DNA of 64,000 nucleotides from a virus. A program made the position numbers and the translations under genes. Of this stretch, positions 547 to 36,698 are shown piece after piece. Under the pieces are notes generated by a model, which saw only the letters and a program-made list of their open reading frames with translations, was not told the DNA's origin and ran no database searches. How positions within the stretch are numbered: the first letter of the stretch is position 1; each line of letters opens with the position of its first letter. The stretch is taken from positions 1 to 64,000 of the IMG/VR virus record IMGVR_UViG_3300005841_000032; one strand, written 5' to 3'.

Positions 547-3060
547 TCATAGTTCAAGATAAACAAATTCATTCTTTGCACGGGTTAAACAAACGAAGGA
601 CAAATTCGATTCTTGTATTAATTGTTCCTTTGTTACCGCATACTGACTCGGTATTAGTTTTTTTCCTTCGTATTTCTCAATGAAGAACACCCTATCCGAT
701 TCAAGGCCTTTTGCCTTGTGCACAGTCATTAATGCTATTCCATCCCTTTCATTATCATCAAATACTGTTTCTATAAACGTTTCTACCTCTGATAAGGTGT
801 CAAATTTATCAAATAACATTCGTAGTATTTCTATTTTTTCAAGAATTATAGCGTATTGGGGGTGATTTTTAGGATTAATCAATTTTTTTCCGGTTTTCTT
901 TGAAATATTTTCAATTTTCTTCACTAAAATTTGTTGAAAATACAATTCTATCTCTTCTTTATCCTCTGTATCCGGACAATTTACAAGTAATGCTAATAAT
1001 CCCTTTTCTAATTCCTTTCCCACTATATAAGCTTTCTTTCCCATCTTTATTAGCTGCATGAATGCATCTACAAGTGGACGAGTATTGCGGCACAAAACAA
1101 AATCTCCGTCTTGCGCTTCTTCTAATTTTCCTTTTCTTACTATTCCTTCTTTTCCTTCTGGATTCTCTTCGATTTCTTTATATACCTTTTGTGCTTCTTT
1201 TACAATGTTCTTAGCGCACCTGTAACTTATTGATAATGGGAGTGTTACGGTATTAGGTTGGCTTGCAAAGCTGTCAAATGAATTAACATCTGAACCGCGA
1301 AAAGCGTAGATAGATTGCCGAGGATCACCGACCAAAATATTTCTTCCTGTCATTGGTTTTACTAACCTGTTCAAGAACAATTGATCTAGCTTACTCATAT
1401 CCTGTGCCTCATCGATTGCCAAGTAATCATATTGTGGCATTCTTATTTCTTTATTCCTTACCGGCATCTCTATAAAGTCCTGAAAATCTACATTTAAACT
1501 ATAATCATTTGTATCGTTGTATTTATAGAAATTCTTAATTGCTCTTATCATTATACTTATCTGTTCTTCTTCTAAATCTATCGCATAATTTTCTAATAAT
1601 TTTTCTACTTCTTCTTTTTCTGGCTTTGTCATTGTTGCTCTTGCCAATTTCATTACTCTGTCTACCTCATAGATTGTACTCCATTTCTTTCTATTATTTT
1701 TTTCTCTTTCTAATAATGGAAGTATAAAATCTATCTGTTTGTTTTCTTTTAATGTTACGTTGCCGGGATAATGTTTTCTAATTGCTCCAAATCCAATGGA
1801 GTGCATCGTACTACATTCGAAGCTATTTTCTAATCTTTCTTTCAGTTCATTTACTATGTGTTTATTAAATGCTACAAATAAACCTCTTTTTCCATAAGGA
1901 ATTAACTTGGATATTTCTACAAGAACAGTTGTGTTGTGTGTAACTGTAAAATCTCCAAGAAGGAATCGACCATCGCCATCTATTTCAAAACCATAATAAT
2001 TCCCTATACCTTTATACTCTATAGAAAATCCAGTATTTAAGACATCTTTCTTTTGCTTTCTAATCTTCGCCTTTTTTCTTTTTATTTTACATGGTATTTC
2101 GTGAACATTTCCACAAATAGAAATTCGCCAATAATATCCAATAAAATTACTATCCTTAATCGTTGATTTTTTATAAGTATAATTGGAATAAAATCCCAAA
2201 CTTCTAGCTAAAAATAAAATATCATTCTTGAGGACATCAAACTTAGTAGAAATCTCATAATATCCTCGTGAATAATGACCATCAGTATCAAGTAAGCCTG
2301 CCAATAATTGAAGTCTGTTTTTTCTTGAATTTATAAGATATTCTTTTGGTATAAATACCTCTTTGTCACTTAAACATCTTAAAAATTCATTTCTAAACTT
2401 ATTTCTTCCTGATCTTTTGCCGCTATTTTGAGTGGTTAATGAAATTCTATAGCATGAATCTCTATCATTATCAGAAACCATTTTAACTTCAATACCTTCT
2501 TCTTTTATATTCTTTAAGTAACTGATTAGCTCAATGTCTTTCGCATTTATAGAAACTGTAGGGGTTCCATTATGCTTTGTTCCATCTCCAATCCATACTC
2601 CCAATAAATAAGGATCAATGTTAGTTTTTTGTTTTGCAAACTCAACTCCAACCCTAAACTGTTTAAATTGATGTCGTTGCCATTTGGGCACCAATAGCCA
2701 ATCATTTAATGGAATATCTATTGTATCGTTTTTATTTATTCCTGACTCAGAATAGGAAGCTTTTAAACTTAATATGTGACTTTTATTGCACCCCCATATA
2801 TCCCCCTTTACAGGAATAACGTCATACATTTCATCTTCTCCCATTACAGTCGATAAAACATTTCTAGGCATCGAATCCGGCCCCATCAATTGATCACCTT
2901 GTTTTACATCTTGAACCTTTTTTATTTCGCCGCTAAACATCAAAACAGGAGTGTCAAATTTTAGACACTTACCGGCACCCGCTGTCGCCTGTATAGCTAT
3001 GTTCTTATTAGTAGTAATTACTTCTGAGAATATATTTTCTTGGTAGTGGCTGAACTTCAC
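547..3060 (-). CDS. UvrD/Rep-family superfamily 1 DNA helicase interrupted by an intein
   Basis: An ATP-driven DNA unwinding enzyme. The precursor is 837 aa. The Walker A loop (AGAGK, residues 27-31, then TT at 377-378) is split by an intein at residues 32-376. After the intein the helicase motifs follow in order: motif II DEAQD (550-554), motif III GDPRQSIYAFRG (578-589), a motif IV-like SYRC, motif V TVHKAKGLE and motif VI LTRAK. The spliced protein would be about 492 aa, short for UvrD and more like phage versions. The start is GTG at 3060. A role in replication or recombination fits the rest of the window. The family is clear; the exact pathway is inferred. Confidence 0.92.
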   Translation of the reverse strand: MKFSHYQENIFSEVITTNKNIAIQATAGAGKCLKFDTPVLMFSGEIKKVQDVKQGDQLMGPDSMPRNVLSTVMGEDEMYDVIPVKGDIWGCNKSHILSLKASYSESGINKNDTIDIPLNDWLLVPKWQRHQFKQFRVGVEFAKQKTNIDPYLLGVWIGDGTKHNGTPTVSINAKDIELISYLKNIKEEGIEVKMVSDNDRDSCYRISLTTQNSGKRSGRNKFRNEFLRCLSDKEVFIPKEYLINSRKNRLQLLAGLLDTDGHYSRGYYEISTKFDVLKNDILFLARSLGFYSNYTYKKSTIKDSNFIGYYWRISICGNVHEIPCKIKRKKAKIRKQKKDVLNTGFSIEYKGIGNYYGFEIDGDGRFLLGDFTVTHNTTVLVEISKLIPYGKRGLFVAFNKHIVNELKERLENSFECSTMHSIGFGAIRKHYPGNVTLKENKQIDFILPLLEREKNNRKKWSTIYEVDRVMKLARATMTKPEKEEVEKLLENYAIDLEEEQISIMIRAIKNFYKYNDTNDYSLNVDFQDFIEMPVRNKEIRMPQYDYLAIDEAQDMSKLDQLFLNRLVKPMTGRNILVGDPRQSIYAFRGSDVNSFDSFASQPNTVTLPLSISYRCAKNIVKEAQKVYKEIEENPEGKEGIVRKGKLEEAQDGDFVLCRNTRPLVDAFMQLIKMGKKAYIVGKELEKGLLALLVNCPDTEDKEEIELYFQQILVKKIENISKKTGKKLINPKNHPQYAIILEKIEILRMLFDKFDTLSEVETFIETVFDDNERDGIALMTVHKAKGLESDRVFFIEKYEGKKLIPSQYAVTKEQLIQESNLSFVCLTRAKNEFVYLEL
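1933..2967 (-). mobile_element. Intein with LAGLIDADG endonuclease in the helicase P-loop
   Basis: 345 aa (residues 32-376 of the precursor). It starts with Cys right after AGAGK and ends in a canonical VTHN, with Thr377 as the +1 nucleophile. The first splicing block reads CLKFDTPVLMFSG. Two dodecapeptide motifs, LLGVWIGDG (152-160) and LAGLLDTDG (253-261), indicate a homing endonuclease. The insertion lies between Lys and Thr of the Walker A motif, so the helicase cannot bind ATP until splicing is complete. Confidence 0.93.
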
Positions 3061-7263: not shown

Positions 7264-7308
7264 ATCACTATTACTGATGGAACGTTATCAACCTAAACGT
7301 CTATTTTG

Positions 7309-7383
7309 TGGGCCTTGATGGATTTGAATCAACGACCTACAGATTATGAGTTCTGCCGCTCTAACCATCTGAGCTAAAGGCTC
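7309..7383 (-). tRNA. tRNA-Met-like (CAT anticodon) with an 8-nt anticodon loop
   Basis: Minus strand, 75 nt. Acceptor GAGCCTT pairs with AAGGCCC (one A-C mismatch). D arm is GCTC/GAGC. Anticodon stem is GCAGA/TCTGT with loop ACTCATAA, one base longer than the standard seven. T arm is GTTGA/CCATC with loop TTCAAAT and weak pairing. No CCA is encoded. The CAT anticodon could be elongator Met or lysidine-modified Ile. The mismatches and extra loop base suggest a decayed or unusual tRNA, or a single-base sequencing error. Confidence 0.75.
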
Positions 7384-9149: not shown

Positions 9150-9186
9150 TTAAAATAAAATAGGCAAGCCTTTCGACCTGCCTATT
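9150..9186 (-). terminator. Rho-independent terminator after the 9207-9659 gene
   Basis: An 8-bp stem, AATAGGCA (9159-9166) with TGCCTATT (9179-9186), is followed on the minus strand by TTTTATTTT. It lies directly downstream of the gene ending at 9207. Confidence 0.75.
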
Positions 9187-9206: not shown

Positions 9207-9659
9207 TTAGTCCAAATGAGCCACCCCTTCTACTTTGCTGAACTTAATCCCCGGCACCTGATAGAGGTACAATTGGAGCCTTTTAGCGGTCATTAAAGGA
9301 TATTTCTCTTTTACCCGCTCAATAATATGGTCAAAGGTAATAGTCTTTGTTCCGTGGCCCTTAGATTGCTCAAAATAGCCTTTAAGGAAGTCAAATATGC
9401 CTATGTTGACCCTTTGGTGTTTTTTTAAACGAGGGCGGGTTATCGGGTTGACTTTAACCATTTCCCTTCTTTCTTCACCATTTACGACCTCTTCCTTACT
9501 TACCTCCATTTTCACGCCGTTGATCGTGTTACCCTTTACCTCATAGATTGCCTTTGTGAGATTCAAGGAATGACGGTCTCTTAAATACTCCCTCAGCACC
9601 TCAAAGAGTTCAAGACGATTCAATTCTGCGTTTCCTACTGTTTTCAATTCTGTTTTCAT
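9207..9659 (-). CDS. Hypothetical protein (150 aa)
   Basis: ATG at 9659 (MKTELKTVGNAELNRLELFE) is preferred to an earlier start. The C-terminal part (KTITFDHIIERVKEKYPLMTAKRLQLYLYQVPG) is helical and could be DNA-binding. It is alone between a structured intergenic region and a terminator, so it is probably its own transcription unit. It has higher G+C than most neighbours. No family recognised. Confidence 0.55.
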   Translation of the reverse strand: MKTELKTVGNAELNRLELFEVLREYLRDRHSLNLTKAIYEVKGNTINGVKMEVSKEEVVNGEERREMVKVNPITRPRLKKHQRVNIGIFDFLKGYFEQSKGHGTKTITFDHIIERVKEKYPLMTAKRLQLYLYQVPGIKFSKVEGVAHLD

Positions 9660-9729
9660 TTTTGTTTGTTTTTGTTTCCAGACTTTTAACAAACCTTATG
9701 CCATTACGCTAAACCCTCATAGGAATGCG

Positions 9730-9826
9730 AGAATTAATTTCTGTTAAACGATCTTTACTTGAGTGTGTGGAACTTAGGGTAAAAATTTGGACGCCTTAGA
9801 AATTAATTCTACATTTATTACACACT
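9730..9826. repeat. Interleaved inverted repeats in an intergenic region
   Basis: A perfect 13-bp inverted repeat, AGAATTAATTTCT (9730-9742) and AGAAATTAATTCT (9798-9810), is interleaved with AGTGTGT (9762-9768) and ACACACT (9820-9826). AACCCTCAT occurs as a direct copy on both sides. This could be a protein-binding site or regulatory RNA structure, or part of a replication origin. Function is not shown by sequence alone. Confidence 0.6.
9786..9817 (+). promoter_or_regulatory. Bacteroidetes-type promoter candidate, plus strand
   Basis: TTTG at 9786-9789, a 20-base spacer, then TACATTTA at 9810-9817. This closely matches the -33 TTTG / -7 TAnnTTTG pattern. It faces the plus-strand RNA candidate that ends in a strong terminator at 9962. 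Confidence 0.5.
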
Positions 9827-9962
9827 AACCCTCATTTTATGATTTATGTTTTATGGTCGGCAAAAAACATTACATTTCAGGTTGGCAAGGAAGTAGAAGT
9901 ATGGGATATGAAATTTGTAATGTTCAACAATTAATTGAGAGGGCTTCGGCCCTTTCTTTTTT
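9823..9962 (+). ncRNA. Small-RNA candidate on the plus strand
   Basis: It lies between a promoter-like sequence and a strong terminator. Inside is a long hairpin: AACATTACATTTCA (9866-9879) pairs with TGAAATTTGTAATGTT (9909-9924), 14 pairs with a 2-nt bulge. A short frame starting ATGGTCGGC overlaps it but would run through the terminator, so a non-coding RNA is more likely. It opposes the general minus-strand transcription and might act as an antisense or regulatory RNA. The class is not recognised. Confidence 0.45.
9937..9962 (+). terminator. Rho-independent terminator with TTCG tetraloop
   Basis: GAGAGGGC-TTCG-GCCCTTTC, an 8-bp stem with one G-T pair, is followed by TTTTTT on the plus strand. 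The minus strand has no U-run after the stem, so the terminator works only for plus-strand transcription. Confidence 0.85.
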
Positions 9963-10024
9963 ATATGCTTTTGCTTTCAATATAACTACACTGTTGCCTT
10001 TTATATCTTATAACGTATAAAAAG

Positions 10025-10408
10025 CTATATAACTCTTCTGGATACAAGGAAAGAGCAAAGAGAATCGCAATCCAGATTCCAAACGTAACTATTTTCCAGC
10101 CTTATTGTTTTAACTCCTATTGATTTCAAGTAAATCTCTTTTCGGCTATCCTGTTCTTTTTGCTTTTTCTTGTTGTGAGACTTTCCATCTAGTTCAATAG
10201 TCGTATTTGATTCATGGAAATAGAAATCAGAAATAAAGAATGCTTCGTCTTTGTACCACCCTTTCTGAAAATTCATTTTGAATTTAAATCTATATTTCTT
10301 TTTCAATTGACTTATTAGTTTCTTAAACTGTTTTTCTGTAGCTGTAATATTCTGTCTTAGTTCTTTTTCATATTGCTTGCCTACTTCTAACTTTTTTCTA
10401 TTGATCAT
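10025..10408 (-). CDS. DUF559/Vsr-like PD-(D/E)XK nuclease
   Basis: 127 aa. An N-terminal basic helical part is followed by the nuclease core: FISDFYFHESNTTIELDGKSHN, then QEQDSRKEIYLKSIGVKTIRLEN. The acidic residues in SDF and ELDGKSH match the DUF559/EDxHD fold, which includes Vsr repair enzymes and some phage homing endonucleases. It lies right next to the structured non-coding region 10490-10873, as a homing nuclease beside its RNA element might. Activity is inferred from the motif only. Confidence 0.75.
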   Translation of the reverse strand: MINRKKLEVGKQYEKELRQNITATEKQFKKLISQLKKKYRFKFKMNFQKGWYKDEAFFISDFYFHESNTTIELDGKSHNKKKQKEQDSRKEIYLKSIGVKTIRLENSYVWNLDCDSLCSFLVSRRVI

Positions 10409-10489
10409 TATTATATTAGAATCTTATTTTAGTTATTAAAGATACCTATAAGATTATTTAAGTATTTAGTAGTGTATTTCCTTGTGTTA

Positions 10490-10873
10490 TATAATTAGTG
10501 AATTGGGTAAAGCACGCCCCGTACTAAGTCTTTCAACATAGGGACGTTGCTATTTGTTGGTTAATTATAGAACCCTACTTGTCGAACGTATTAACCCGTC
10601 CGTCTACTCTTGCCTGTTCGGTTCCTTTCTAAGCACCACGGCTTTGCTTTAAGTAGATGCACCACAGTAACAAATTGTTTTATACTAGCAATAATCGCTG
10701 CTGTACGGCTGCGTCCTACGACCAATTAAAGCTAGTTATTCAAAAAAAAGAAAAACCTCATCGGTTCCCGCTTTTTTTGAAAGATTGCTTAGGTCTTTTT
10801 TAGAAAGTTAGAAAGGAAAGAAACCGAATGAGGTTAATATTTTCAAAACTAACTGCTAAAATACCTAAGCAAA
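10490..10873 (-). ncRNA. Structured non-coding RNA candidate (about 380 nt)
   Basis: No protein frame is supported here. Bases 10501-10740 have 104 G+C of 240 (43%), against about 20-28% just to the right, a usual sign of structured RNA in AT-rich genomes. Two long pairings interleave: AACCTCATCGGTT (10754-10766) with AACCGAATGAGGTT (10822-10835), and TTGCTTAGGT (10785-10794) with ACCTAAGCAA (10863-10872), giving a pseudoknot layout. Shorter pairs exist, e.g. TAGGG/CCCTA, ACGTT/AACGT and ACTAGC/GCTAGT. Strand is inferred from a promoter-like sequence at 10876. tmRNA, RNase P and group II domain V signatures were not found. Confidence 0.5.
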
Positions 10874-10875
10874 CG

Positions 10876-10910
10876 TAAAAATACAACTTATTAATTTATC
10901 TTTTTCAAAA
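10876..10910 (-). promoter_or_regulatory. Promoter candidate for the structured RNA
   Basis: On the minus strand TTTTG (10906-10910) is followed after 22 bases by TATTTTTA (10876-10883). This fits the Bacteroidetes -33/-7 pattern and shares the GTATTTTTA core with other sites in the window. Transcription would begin close to 10870, at the first paired element of the RNA candidate. Confidence 0.45.
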
Positions 10911-10938
10911 TAGTTGTATTTAAATTAAATGAATTTGA

Positions 10939-10998
10939 GATTTAATGTTTAAGGCGACTTTGATTTGACCTTAGTCGAACATGCCTGAGTGTTAAATC
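10939..10998. other. Long imperfect hairpin downstream of the T5orf172 gene
   Basis: Nested pairs: GATTTAA (10939-10945) with TTAAATC (10992-10998), AGG with CCT, and CGACT (10955-10959) with AGTCG (10972-10976). No clear U-run follows on the minus strand. It may be a weak terminator, an RNA-processing site or part of the neighbouring RNA element. Confidence 0.45.
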
Positions 10999-11014
10999 TT
11001 TTAATTGTGAAAGT

Positions 11015-11560
11015 TTATTTGATTCCTATGATCTTTTTAATTGCTTTATCTATCTGTTCGACTGTCAAACCATACATCCACTCACCTCTAACTCTGAATT
11101 TATCAAGGTAACGATGTACCGCATGTTCCTCTTGAATGGAGCCGACAAATTTCTTTAAAAGCTTAATTGTAGGCTTCTGCGCTTGGAGCGTGTATTCGCG
11201 ATGGGAAGGTGATTTGCTAAAACCCACTTTATAGTAACCGGGAAGTGAAGCGTCTTCCATTATATAAATAAATCCTTGTTTACTTTTTATATCTCCATTT
11301 AATCCAATTGGTATATATCGTAGGATTCTTTTATTTTCTTCATTATATACTTGTTCAATGTAAATAAGCTTTAAAAGTTTATTCAGTAGAGTAGGCAGAG
11401 AGGCAATGTTTATATTTAGAGCCTTAGCAATTTGCGAGTCGGTCTCAATGAAGTTGCCAGACTCATCGATATTTTGCTGTATGTAACAAAGCAAAAGAGC
11501 TTCGATAATCGTAAGCTCTTTATAATATTCTGATAAAGGCGTTTGGATTTTAATTTCCAT
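11015..11560 (-). CDS. Winged-helix plus T5orf172 (GIY-YIG superfamily) protein
   Basis: ATG at 11560 overlaps the upstream stop as TGATG and is preferred to a TTG just before. The N-terminal 80 residues look like a winged helix (LLLCYIQQNI...TDSQIAKALNINIASLPTLLNKLLKL). The C-terminal part (GFIYIMEDASLPGYYKVGFS ... EEHAVHRYLDKFRVRGEWM) matches the T5orf172/MUG113 domain, a GIY-YIG relative common in phage proteins. Likely DNA-binding; nuclease activity is possible but not shown. Confidence 0.8.
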   Translation of the reverse strand: MEIKIQTPLSEYYKELTIIEALLLCYIQQNIDESGNFIETDSQIAKALNINIASLPTLLNKLLKLIYIEQVYNEENKRILRYIPIGLNGDIKSKQGFIYIMEDASLPGYYKVGFSKSPSHREYTLQAQKPTIKLLKKFVGSIQEEHAVHRYLDKFRVRGEWMYGLTVEQIDKAIKKIIGIK

Positions 11561-11793
11561 CAATAATGCTCTTTTCTATTTAAGCGGTGTTCTGTAAGTC
11601 TATTATTAATTTTTTCTAATCTAATAAGCAAATCTTCTATTTTTTTAGGAACTTCTTCGCCGACATAAAATATAGTTGAATAATTATCTAATTGAAGATA
11701 AATTTCTTTATTTGCATTTGCTGTTCTTAATGCTGTATTTTCCGCAATTAAATCTTGATATTCTTTAAGCGGCATCGTAATAGTTTTTTCCAT
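11560..11793 (-). CDS. Hypothetical protein (77 aa)
   Basis: Starts MEKTITMPLKEYQDLIAENTALR, a form often seen in phage coiled-coil proteins. It is coupled to the T5orf172 gene by a 1-nt overlap. No recognised domain. Confidence 0.6.
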   Translation of the reverse strand: MEKTITMPLKEYQDLIAENTALRTANANKEIYLQLDNYSTIFYVGEEVPKKIEDLLIRLEKINNRLTEHRLNRKEHY

Positions 11794-12561: not shown

Positions 12562-13130
12562 AGGCAAATATCTAATTTTTTTATTTCTTCTGATAAAGAC
12601 TCATAGTCTGATTTTAAGTATACAGAAGAAATAGATTTCATAAATTCTTCATCGTATTCATCAGCGGTTACTAACATGCCGTAAACTTTAATATCAAACC
12701 ATTTTAGTTGATCTGTAATTTGTTTTACGCCTTGTTTGTAATCAGGTTGACCATCAGATACAATAATAATGATTTTACGAAATCCGGGTCTGCCGTTATT
12801 TACTAATTCATTAACGGCCAATTGTAAGCCGTCAACCATATTAGTTGAACCAGAAGAGTGATAAATATTAGAAATGGCAACTTGTAAAGATTTCTTGTCA
12901 TTTGAAAGAGGTGAATCTAAAACGGCATTAGTGGCAAATGTGACTACTCCTATCTTTACAGTCTCTTCGCTTAATTTGACTTTGTTTAATAATGATAGAA
13001 AAGACTTCTTCATGTATTCCTCATGCCCATTAACTGAAGCAGAAAAGTCCCCCACAATTAAAATATCAATTTGTAAACAGGGATTTTCAGGAGTGATAAG
13101 GATACAAAGAAGAAATAATAAGACTTTCAT
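12558..13130 (-). CDS. VWA-domain protein with N-terminal hydrophobic segment
   Basis: 190 aa. Residues 1-18 are hydrophobic and may be a signal peptide or anchor. The von Willebrand A fold follows: MIDAS motif DFSAS (Asp28, Ser30, Ser32), the threonine in GSTNMVDGL, and the aspartate in IIVSDGQPD. Such domains bind protein partners through a metal ion. It is coupled to a sigma factor gene upstream and a zinc ribbon downstream by 4-nt overlaps. VWA proteins are unusual among phage regulatory genes, and no partner ATPase lies next to it. Confidence 0.85.
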   Translation of the reverse strand: MKVLLFLLCILITPENPCLQIDILIVGDFSASVNGHEEYMKKSFLSLLNKVKLSEETVKIGVVTFATNAVLDSPLSNDKKSLQVAISNIYHSSGSTNMVDGLQLAVNELVNNGRPGFRKIIIIVSDGQPDYKQGVKQITDQLKWFDIKVYGMLVTADEYDEEFMKSISSVYLKSDYESLSEEIKKLDICL

Positions 13131-13996
13131 AAATATTCTCTTAATTGATCAATATTTTTTAATGCCTTTAATCTTTTTAAAACGCGCGGCTTGAATTTGG
13201 CCACATCCTTACTTTTCATTTTTAATTTTCCAGCTATATTGTCTGTTTGTTGATGATCTTCACCATTTAACCCAAACATAAAAATGAAAATGTCATATTC
13301 GCGTTGACTTAATTGATACAGGAACTTATTCAGATCGAAAGCTAGTGAGCCCTCGATATCCTCTGCATCTATTCCTAATTCATTGTTGCTTAATACATCT
13401 TCAAGGGTATCTTCATTATCATGTTCCTTGCTACTTCCTATGCCGTCTTGCAATGATGGATTATAACCGGCGTGAAGAACGGCTTCAATAATATCATCTT
13501 CATTTAAATCTTGATATCGTTCACATATATCATCTACATTTGGATACCGTTGTAATTTTTGTTCAAGTTCTGAAATGATCTTTTTAATTTTTGTAACAAG
13601 GGCTTCGCGGTTAGCAGGTAATTGAATGGTACGAACATTATAGTCAAATGATGAAATGATGCGTTTTCGAATCCACCATACAGCATATGAAAAGAATTTC
13701 CATTCCTTTCTAACATCAAATCTATAAGCAGCTTCTATGAGACCATCATTGCCTTCGCTGATAAGATCAAGTAATGGAACACCACCGCCTTGATATTTCT
13801 TAGCAACTGATATAACGAATTTGACATTGGCTTTGACTAATTTATCAAGTGAGGAAACATCATTTGTTTTTTGAATCTTGGCAATGAGTATCTTTTCGTC
13901 CGCTTTACTCAGTGGCTCATAATCTCTTATTTCATTAAAGAAACGATTTAGATTATCGTTATAGACGTCAGCCGTTATTTTTCGGGATATTTTCAT
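13127..13996 (-). CDS. Sigma-70 family RNA polymerase sigma factor
   Basis: 289 aa. Region 1.2 is LSKADEKILIAKIQ, and region 2 is LVKANVKFVISVAKKYQGGG, LLDLISEGNDGLIEAAYRFD and FFSYAVWWIRKRI, close to primary sigma factors. Region 3 (LPANREALVTKIKKI) follows. Region 4 is recognisable but diverged (LSQREYDIFIFMFGLNGED ... DNIAGKLKMKSKDVAKF). It would direct host RNA polymerase to phage promoters, perhaps to the GTATTTTTAA sites found here, which is an inference. Confidence 0.92.
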   Translation of the reverse strand: MKISRKITADVYNDNLNRFFNEIRDYEPLSKADEKILIAKIQKTNDVSSLDKLVKANVKFVISVAKKYQGGGVPLLDLISEGNDGLIEAAYRFDVRKEWKFFSYAVWWIRKRIISSFDYNVRTIQLPANREALVTKIKKIISELEQKLQRYPNVDDICERYQDLNEDDIIEAVLHAGYNPSLQDGIGSSKEHDNEDTLEDVLSNNELGIDAEDIEGSLAFDLNKFLYQLSQREYDIFIFMFGLNGEDHQQTDNIAGKLKMKSKDVAKFKPRVLKRLKALKNIDQLREYL

Positions 13997-34025: not shown

Positions 34026-34246
34026 AATTCAGGCGCTTCAAGTGGTTGCCATGCAATAGGTTTTGAGTTACCGCGACCCCACCCACTATCGTCTTGTCCC
34101 CAATTATAATGCTTCCCGCCAGAATAACCATAGTCAACAACTGATTCAAGCCAACCAAATTCATATCTTTTATTACCCATATACATAAGAATCTTTTCGC
34201 CTATGTTAGGTAACTGGTCTTCTGGTTTTATCCAAAGGTTTTTCAT
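34022..34246 (-). CDS. DUF551-like protein (74 aa)
   Basis: MKNLWIKPEDQLPNIGEKIL at the N terminus and KPIAWQPLEAPE at the C terminus match the DUF551 pattern (W-I ... LP ... W-x-P-L-P). These proteins are common in phages; function unknown. It overlaps the DnaB-like gene end by 41 nt. Confidence 0.72.
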   Translation of the reverse strand: MKNLWIKPEDQLPNIGEKILMYMGNKRYEFGWLESVVDYGYSGGKHYNWGQDDSGWGRGNSKPIAWQPLEAPEL

Positions 34247-36698
34247 CTGACTTTAATGGTTTATTCCTGATTATTTGTTTTTTCTCAACGTCCCAAAATT
34301 TCTTATTAGTTTCTGCTACATCTATAAATCTACCTTTAGCTACATCTTGCGCAATAGAGAATGTTGATTGCCAACTTTCAATCCTATAATGTCGCTTCTT
34401 TTCAATATGAAGTCTCATTACACTATTGTCATATTCATCCTCTGTTTGATTCAGAGTAAGCGCATAAGCAAATGGATCAAGTGTGGCTTTTAAATTTGAA
34501 ATATCATTTCTTGTTATTACCCAATTGGGATTATTCCAAAATTCTTTCTTTATATCGCTTGCCTGAGTTACCGCAGCTACTCCTATTTTAAATTCAGTAG
34601 CTATATTTATTATCTTTTCACTTGTTGCTTTTTTTCTTGTAGATGTTCCGTCCTGACCTGTGCTATATCTTTTACCGTCACCGGGGTCAAATCCCTCCAA
34701 AAGGTCAAATAGAACTAATCCTATCGGAGCTTCTTTTAACAAATCTATTAATATATTTCTACAATCCAAAATGGATGCGTTGTGAAATTGTTCAAATACA
34801 TGCACATAAATTTCACCTGCTTGCGCTAAATATGCTTGTTTGGCTTTTTCTATTTTTTTAATATCTGCTCCCGATAAATCACCTCTTCTAATATCATGTA
34901 CTTGCACCCCCGTCCACATTGCATCATATCCGTTTTCTATTTCTTCTTTAGTGCTATCGCCCGATGCAAGATGAAGGACTGGAATGCCTCTGAATGAAGC
35001 GTGAAAACCTAATGAGCGAAGCAAAGTTGTGTTATGAGTCACAATGCAATGGTCAGTTAAATAAAGACTCGTTGAATTATCCACTGCTATGCATTGCGTT
35101 TGCATTTTACCAACATATTCTATTTTATCTATAAATCTAGGCGTTAAATAGGATGTTTTAGGAACCACTCTTATTGCTTTTCTTTTTAAGAAGAATGGGT
35201 TAATTTCATTAGGTAAATTAATCATAACGTCATAAGCCAATCTCTTGGATATTCTTTTTTCACCCCTGTATGTATATTTTTTATATCCCCTGTTAACAAT
35301 GTGGCCGGTTCCACCTAATCCATTCACCAATTCTCTCACGTCTTCAGCTAATTTAAAGGAACTTGTATGAAATATTGAACAAGTTCCTTCTCCAGATAAA
35401 GAGCCATCAGTATCCATTAAGCCTCGTAATAAATTCACCCTATCATCTAATGATGAATATAAATAATTACATGGAATAAATTTATCGTATGAATGAATCT
35501 CTCTACCAAATAATTTCCTTAACCTACTTCCCAATTTGCAATAAGATAATCTATAGCTACATTTATCTATATGAATAGGCTTTATTTGCAGTTCATTTCC
35601 AACTCTTTCCAATATTTCTTTATCAATTGTGCTTATAGTTGGCGTTTCAAAAAAATGTCCATCTCCAATAAGCGCCCCCATAGTATATGGAGGTATTGGT
35701 AATTCTTTTTTATTAAAATTAATTGGTTTACAAATTGGCAGTTTATAATTCAAAACATTTTCGCGATCCCTGCACATGAAAATTCTTTCTTTTCCAATCA
35801 TTTCTTTCGTATTCAAGATAGTGTGTCTATCTGGGTCAATAAAGGTGGATGCATATCTCTTAGAGTCGGCTACTCTTTTTCTATCATTAGCTGTATACAC
35901 TTTCCATAAATGATTTTCATCACAATCTACGTATACCCCATCTGAAAAATGAATTCTGTATACATCTCTAATACCTTGAGGGAAAACACCAATAACTTTT
36001 ATCGTTTCACCTTTTTCAGATAAAACGCTATCTCCAACTTTTATTTCACCCATAGTGGTAAATCCATCAGGTGTATAAATTTTAGAATATAATGGTTGGG
36101 CTTTACCGCTTCCAGAACGAGCTACTACCAATAATCCTGTCCCGGCGTCAATCCCCCCGTGGGTTAAATGATCAAATGCTGGTAACCCCGTTGGTATCTT
36201 TGTTGTGCTGAAATCTCTATTCTGTCTTTCGTATTGCCGTTTATCGAATTGCTCATAAATTTTACTATACTGTTTTCGCTTTAATGAAAACTCATGCAAT
36301 TCTTTGTAACCATCTTTTGCTTCCACGTAGGCTTTATCGTACTCACCTCTCGCAAATAATTCCTCTGAACCTTTATGTAATTCAATAAACTTTGCGCGTC
36401 TTATATACTCTTCAAATGTTTCAAGTATGGTATCTTTCTTATCATATATATTGCATTCAGCAATCTTAGCAATAATACTAGTCGCGTCACGTGAATTAAC
36501 ATGTTGACTTATTAACCCAACTGTTGGCGTTTTATTATTTGCACTATGAAAATCAAAGATATATTTAAATATCTGTTTTTCAGGCTCGCTATTCAAATAC
36601 GAATATTGCAAATGAGCTTTAACAATCTCTAAAATGTTTTTAGAAACTATACAAGATTTTGCAAGTTCTATTATAAACTCACTATTTAACTGACTCAA
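34206..36698 (-). CDS. dnaB: DnaB-like replicative helicase interrupted by an intein
   Basis: 830-aa precursor, TTG start overlapping the upstream stop as TTGA. An N-terminal helical domain (1-150) precedes the RecA-like core: KIPTGLPAFDHLTHGGI, then Walker A RSGSGK (194-199) interrupted by an intein (200-556), continuing TTLLRSLGFHA. Walker B is IGLVLFDLLEG. Further DnaB features are AVTQASDI and GDLSGADI. The mature protein would be about 473 aa. With primase and DnaE-type polymerase it completes a phage replisome. The C terminus overlaps a small DUF551-like gene. Confidence 0.92.
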   Translation of the reverse strand: MSQLNSEFIIELAKSCIVSKNILEIVKAHLQYSYLNSEPEKQIFKYIFDFHSANNKTPTVGLISQHVNSRDATSIIAKIAECNIYDKKDTILETFEEYIRRAKFIELHKGSEELFARGEYDKAYVEAKDGYKELHEFSLKRKQYSKIYEQFDKRQYERQNRDFSTTKIPTGLPAFDHLTHGGIDAGTGLLVVARSGSGKAQPLYSKIYTPDGFTTMGEIKVGDSVLSEKGETIKVIGVFPQGIRDVYRIHFSDGVYVDCDENHLWKVYTANDRKRVADSKRYASTFIDPDRHTILNTKEMIGKERIFMCRDRENVLNYKLPICKPINFNKKELPIPPYTMGALIGDGHFFETPTISTIDKEILERVGNELQIKPIHIDKCSYRLSYCKLGSRLRKLFGREIHSYDKFIPCNYLYSSLDDRVNLLRGLMDTDGSLSGEGTCSIFHTSSFKLAEDVRELVNGLGGTGHIVNRGYKKYTYRGEKRISKRLAYDVMINLPNEINPFFLKRKAIRVVPKTSYLTPRFIDKIEYVGKMQTQCIAVDNSTSLYLTDHCIVTHNTTLLRSLGFHASFRGIPVLHLASGDSTKEEIENGYDAMWTGVQVHDIRRGDLSGADIKKIEKAKQAYLAQAGEIYVHVFEQFHNASILDCRNILIDLLKEAPIGLVLFDLLEGFDPGDGKRYSTGQDGTSTRKKATSEKIINIATEFKIGVAAVTQASDIKKEFWNNPNWVITRNDISNLKATLDPFAYALTLNQTEDEYDNSVMRLHIEKKRHYRIESWQSTFSIAQDVAKGRFIDVAETNKKFWDVEKKQIIRNKPLKSDEKPLDKTRRPVT
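35031..36101 (-). mobile_element. Intein with LAGLIDADG endonuclease, starting with alanine
   Basis: 357 aa (residues 200-556). It begins with Ala right after GSGK (AQPLYSKIYTPDGF) instead of Cys or Ser, and ends in VTHN with Thr557 as +1 residue. LAGLIDADG motifs are MGALIGDGH (340-348) and LLRGLMDTDG (423-432). Ala1 inteins are known (KlbA type) and splice by a bypass in which the +1 residue attacks the first junction directly. The insertion is between Lys and Thr of Walker A, the same place as in the helicase at 547-3060. Confidence 0.92.

Follow-up and report, generated by a model that had tools for sequence, protein, structure and literature searches.

The longest gap between genes in this virus record raises the question of whether it encodes a non-coding RNA and, if so, how much of the gap belongs to that RNA and to which class it should be assigned. 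An earlier note had proposed a structured RNA with interleaved helices over 10490-10910, next to a gene for a DUF559 nuclease. We find that the observation is partly right: the site is real, with a structured part of ~135 bases, and a structured non-coding RNA of no described class on the minus strand is supported both by the fold signal and by a promoter motif found throughout the phage. The candidate is credible but orphan; it is known from one sequence, on which its proposed reality and role rest.

Positions are those of the window, the 64,000-nucleotide stretch that was analysed, which forms the first part of a gene-dense record of 110,427 bases from a virus whose host group is Bacteroidota. 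The minus strand carries nearly all genes of the record, and among annotated relatives Chryseobacterium phage MA9V-3 is the nearest (identity of 40% for DnaE and 43.5% for TerL).

Results

The gene-free region and its base composition

10409-11014, minus strand: gene-free region between a GIY-YIG (T5orf172) gene and the DUF559 gene, with no ORF and no coding signal
10490-10740, minus strand: non-coding part, G+C-rich at 42-43% and with no excess structure, as judged by shuffle z, coding model and composition
10025-10408, minus strand: neighbouring gene for a DUF559 (Vsr-like) nuclease (Pfam PF04480, E=1.6e-11)

The ~600 nt without a gene that had been described here are borne out by computation: the 606 nt of 10409-11014, the longest gap of the record, contain no ORF of at least 50 aa, and the stop-to-stop frames inside reach at most 48 aa. 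A 3-periodic model trained on the phage's genes scores the neighbours as coding and detects no coding signal in 10409-11014, and the small frames of this region have no Pfam match, which together rule out a decayed gene. The raised G+C content reported over 240 bases next to an A/T-rich right flank is also present, at 0.42-0.43 over 240 bases in 10485-10740 versus 0.26 at 10740-10930; about 2-3% of all 240-base windows are equally G+C-rich.

Localization of the excess structure

In shuffle tests, the excess folding energy falls within the A/T-rich 10745-10880, where the MFE z is -4.45 on the minus strand and -4.00 on the plus strand. Among 150 random minus-strand control windows of 130 bases each, z averaged -0.24 and went no lower than -3.51. 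The G+C-rich 10480-10745, by the same test, is not structured beyond chance (z of -0.26 minus, -0.54 plus). The structured part is therefore ~135 bases in length, not 420. Inverted repeats are denser at 10551-11050 than anywhere else in the whole record, and 10601-10900 holds 15 inverted 8-mers against a shuffle mean of 2.3, a count as high being seen in 1 of 1000 shuffles.

Tandem hairpins and alternative pairings

10785-10872, minus strand: hairpin B, with a 10-bp helix at its base (10872-10863 with 10794-10785), two inner helices and a large loop, -27 kcal/mol
10739-10782, minus strand: hairpin C, an A-tract/U-tract helix with the tip AACC-GAUGA-GGUU, -15 kcal/mol
10754-10835, minus strand: helix A, 13 bp with one bulge, between the loop of B (10835-10822) and the tip of C (10766-10754)
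10613-10632, minus strand: TTAGAAAGGAACCGAACAGG in the G+C-rich part, a further complement of the B loop, duplex of -21.4 kcal/mol

The two long pairings previously described in an A-B-A'-B' order are both present and interleaved (13 bp with one bulge, and 10 bp in a helix B that continues inward), but the pseudoknot that they would form is not the best fold, as tandem hairpins compute about equal or better. Helix A competes with the tip of hairpin C, which must be opened for it to form. Folded as tandem nested hairpins on the minus strand, B and C together give -42.0 kcal/mol, and the helix-A form gives -46.1 kcal/mol before any pseudoknot penalty (-26.0 from the remaining stems and -20.1 from helix A). 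With a penalty that we estimate at ~7-10 kcal/mol, the helix-A form would come to about -36 to -39 kcal/mol, so that the predicted pseudoknot is possible, not favoured, its energy being near that of the nested fold or slightly poorer.

The computed duplex energies of the B loop with its two potential partners are alike, at -22.4 kcal/mol for the tip of C and -21.4 kcal/mol for 10632-10613, and three of the four matches to AACCGA-N(0-3)-AGG in the record lie at 10613-10833. The hairpin loops are complementary, with a computed dimer gain of only -2.2 kcal/mol.

Hairpin C is below the -4 kcal/mol stem cut-off in a test for a stable G+C stem followed by a U-run and is not an intrinsic terminator, the best terminators of the phage having values of -10 to -18 kcal/mol. 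An attenuator with hairpin C as its terminator is thus a weak proposal, because C is without the stem strength of the phage's terminators. Downstream of 10870, the first strong terminator found is the one at 9162.

A phage-wide motif and the predicted RNA start

10876-10910, minus strand: promoter-like site, TTTTG (10910-10906) plus GTATTTTTA (10884-10876), an instance of the phage-wide gene-start motif
10879-10921, strand not assigned: AAATACAACT...AGTTGTATTT, a perfect 10-bp inverted repeat that overlaps the promoter-like site
10437-10445, minus strand: GTATCTTTA, promoter-like motif 28 nt ahead of the DUF559 ATG

The minus-strand site that had been read as TTTTG-N22-TATTTTTA and likened to a promoter proved to be real and to belong to a motif used across the phage. 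In the whole record the coding strand carries GTATTTTTA 17 times and the opposite strand 3 times; 11-12 of the other 16 coding-strand sites, depending on the start codons accepted, are within 45 nt before a start codon. The 8-mer GTATTTTT is 13-fold enriched upstream of phage genes, the highest value among those seen at least 5 times, and all 19 top-scoring motif sites of the record fall on the coding strand. This enrichment on the coding strand upstream of starts, together with the copy at 10884-10876, points to a phage promoter of the GTATTTTTA type, and the motif, which resembles the Bacteroidota -7 element TANNTTTG, is likely a phage promoter motif. In favour of its use here, the 10884-10876 site has further bases in common with the site before gene L009:2895-4280. 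Against it, the motif score of the 10884-10876 site ranks only 22nd in the record, under most gene-start sites.

The spacing between the -7 element and the transcription start site is 4-5 nt in Flavobacterium (PMC6847099), from which we predict an RNA start at 10871/10870, at the base of helix B. The strand and start of the candidate RNA are therefore better supported than the earlier note knew. Elsewhere, GTATTTTTA lies mostly 4-28 nt before start codons (e.g. window 61750, 60956 and 7250; L007 5147; L009 4305), and at several sites the distance to the ATG is so short that a leaderless mRNA would result.

Relation to the DUF559 gene

The link to DUF559 comes down to adjacency, as this gene has its own motif copy and its two non-coding flanks fold together no better than shuffled controls (gain of -8.8 versus -8.3 kcal/mol for shuffles). 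The separate motif favours a minus-strand unit distinct from DUF559, although no strong terminator follows hairpin C before 9162, and the candidate RNA is not clearly tied to this gene. No structure was found at the DUF559 start codon (10365-10494, z +0.65). An intron with DUF559 as its ORF was ruled out on account of this lack of joint folding and of the genes to either side, which read complete.

The opposite flank of DUF559, the gap at 9693-10024, contains interleaved repeats of its own, a 13-bp AGAATTAATTTCT/AGAAATTAATTCT pair and AGTGTGT/ACACACT, with an inverted-repeat count of 10 versus 1.5 in shuffles and an MFE z of only about -1. At window 9937-9956, a good terminator-like hairpin, GAGAGGGCTTCGGCCCTTTC plus a T-run, points along the plus strand, although the nearby genes are all on the minus strand; no promoter motif was found for this plus-strand hairpin.

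Search for known classes and relatives

At the gathering score, Rfam finds no family in the region (group I/II introns, tmRNA, GOLLD, ROOL, OLE, pRNA), and at E up to 5 over 9600-11050 it returns only three poor matches, at 9835-10171, outside the candidate. That the earlier note could not match the locus to a known RNA class thus withstands this check, no match being credible even at the permissive threshold. ARAGORN finds only the tRNA at 7308 and no tmRNA in the region. Group I and group II introns were rejected on the lack of an Rfam match and on genes 11015-11563 and 9207-9692, which read complete, not split; a phi29 pRNA was rejected as there is no Rfam pRNA match.

No homologue was found in the phage, viral or species-genome collections. 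Comparison of the region with 50,697 phage records by blastn gave short chance matches only, ten related viral records searched for the RNA yielded only A/T-rich fragments, and searches with exact sequence patterns gave 4 chance matches in G+C-rich DNA, with none from further pattern searches. Protein probes (sigma factor, DnaE, TerL, DUF559 and gene 9207) led to distant viruses only, or none, in IMG/VR, and the TerL probe led to distant relatives only or none in the species genomes.

Discussion

We tentatively favour, at somewhat short of an even chance, the reading that the candidate is an orphan, phage-specific non-coding transcript of the minus strand whose 5' domain, made of two hairpins, works through loop pairing. 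Computation shows the lack of a gene, the promoter motif, the local fold signal and the complementarities. We infer transcription, which would begin near 10870 from the phage's own GTATTTTTA-type promoter; the first ~130 nt would then fold into the tandem hairpins B and C, and a start at the base of hairpin B would give an RNA with a folded 5' end. The G+C-rich 10490-10740 is possibly the 3' part of the transcript. Since the B loop has two complementary partners, the tip of C and a site nearer the 3' end, we infer loop pairing in the cell, by which the RNA may switch between forms or the exposed loop may pair with another RNA; the RNA may have a regulatory role. A more specific proposal, which we regard as quite doubtful, is that the locus represents a new class of small phage RNA, transcribed from the phage's own type of promoter, whose tandem hairpins, with loops complementary over 13 bp, form a conformational switch, also using 10632-10613, or a kissing-loop oligomer.

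The evidence for a transcript can also be read at the level of DNA. The fold signal is nearly equal on the plus strand (z -4.0), which argues against the transcript, as do the absence of a homologue in the collections searched and the weakness of hairpin C as a terminator, and in A/T-rich DNA inverted repeats acting as DNA can yield excess folding energy. The repeats might therefore be bound by protein, as an operator or a replication or packaging element, or be by-products of local duplication, with no functional RNA made, an explanation that fits the like signal on both strands, the three related AACCGA(N)AGG copies in both orientations and the perfect inverted repeat over the promoter-like site. 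Their spacing is unequal, however, with no regular iteron array, and the motif predicts a transcription start at the base of hairpin B, so that we consider a DNA-level origin rather unlikely. If there is a transcript, it could instead be a long 5' leader (~460 nt) of an mRNA for DUF559 and gene 9207-9692, in which hairpins B and C, together with the sites that can alternatively pair with the B loop, would regulate read-through or nuclease expression. The common strand, the lack of a strong terminator between 10870 and 9162 and the alternative pairings of like energy (-22.4 and -21.4 kcal/mol) are consistent with such a leader, but the promoter-like motif 28 nt before the DUF559 ATG, a hairpin C too weak for a terminator by the criteria used and a start codon that is itself unstructured (10365-10494) make it unlikely.

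Gene-free length, raised G+C content and interleaved pairings had suggested that a large ornate phage RNA occupies 10490-10910 and that its G+C-rich part is a structured domain. The z of -0.3 to -0.5 for that part, the absence of homologues, a fold signal of ~135 nt only and the lack of any Rfam family of the GOLLD/ROOL kind even at the permissive threshold count against this proposal of the earlier note, which we now regard as improbable. The nearest annotated relative, MA9V-3, carries a permuted tmRNA (L003 22857-23081; RF04321, 64.7 bits), likewise a non-coding RNA, and for this reason tmRNA identity was asked of the candidate, in which the string GTTCGACAAG recalls the tmRNA D-loop. ARAGORN and the Rfam tmRNA models (E up to 5) have no match in the region, yet both find the MA9V-3 copy; no T-arm or acceptor partner is seen; and the gene order differs, the MA9V-3 tmRNA lying between terminase and Rep helicase and the candidate between helicase and sigma factor (13127-13996). 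We therefore give very little credence to a diverged, perhaps permuted, tmRNA.

The orphan transcript that we favour shares features with several known systems. The phi29 pRNA is a phage RNA of similar size, in which two complementary hairpin loops can pair, but the candidate consists of two tandem hairpins with no 5'-3' closing helix and no Rfam pRNA match, and its phage has an ordinary large terminase (L009:839-2314). GOLLD and ROOL are, like the candidate, structured non-coding RNAs of phages and prophages whose function is unknown, and kissing loops are important in both (PMC12286853). They are complex and several hundred nt long (many GOLLD RNAs exceed 800 nt) and are often near tRNA islands, whereas the candidate has a signal of ~135 nt, a nearest tRNA ~3 kb away and no model match. 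With small phage RNAs and attenuator leaders the candidate has in common a predicted promoter of its own, short hairpins and alternative pairings, but it is without a sequence relative and without a strong terminator. Should it prove to be transcribed, the candidate would give a poorly studied Bacteroidota phage lineage a non-coding RNA whose start site is defined; whatever the RNA proves to be, the phage-wide GTATTTTTA motif is a point of entry to the gene regulation of this virus.

Other features of the record

The tRNA at window 7308-7383, identified by Rfam and ARAGORN, has a two-base anticodon by ARAGORN, which assigned no amino acid. At the record end, the gene at L009 5576-6394 encodes a Bacteroidota sorting domain for type IX secretion; it is much like host DNA and possibly marks a provirus boundary or represents cargo. 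Mobile endonucleases are abundant in the record. Inteins are apparently present in the helicase genes at window 547-3060 and 34206-36698, as judged by reading the translation, and with the many GIY-YIG and HNH genes they make this a virus heavily loaded with mobile elements; a reverse transcriptase gene is found in the same record at L008 5369-6325 (RVT_1, E=7.6e-14).
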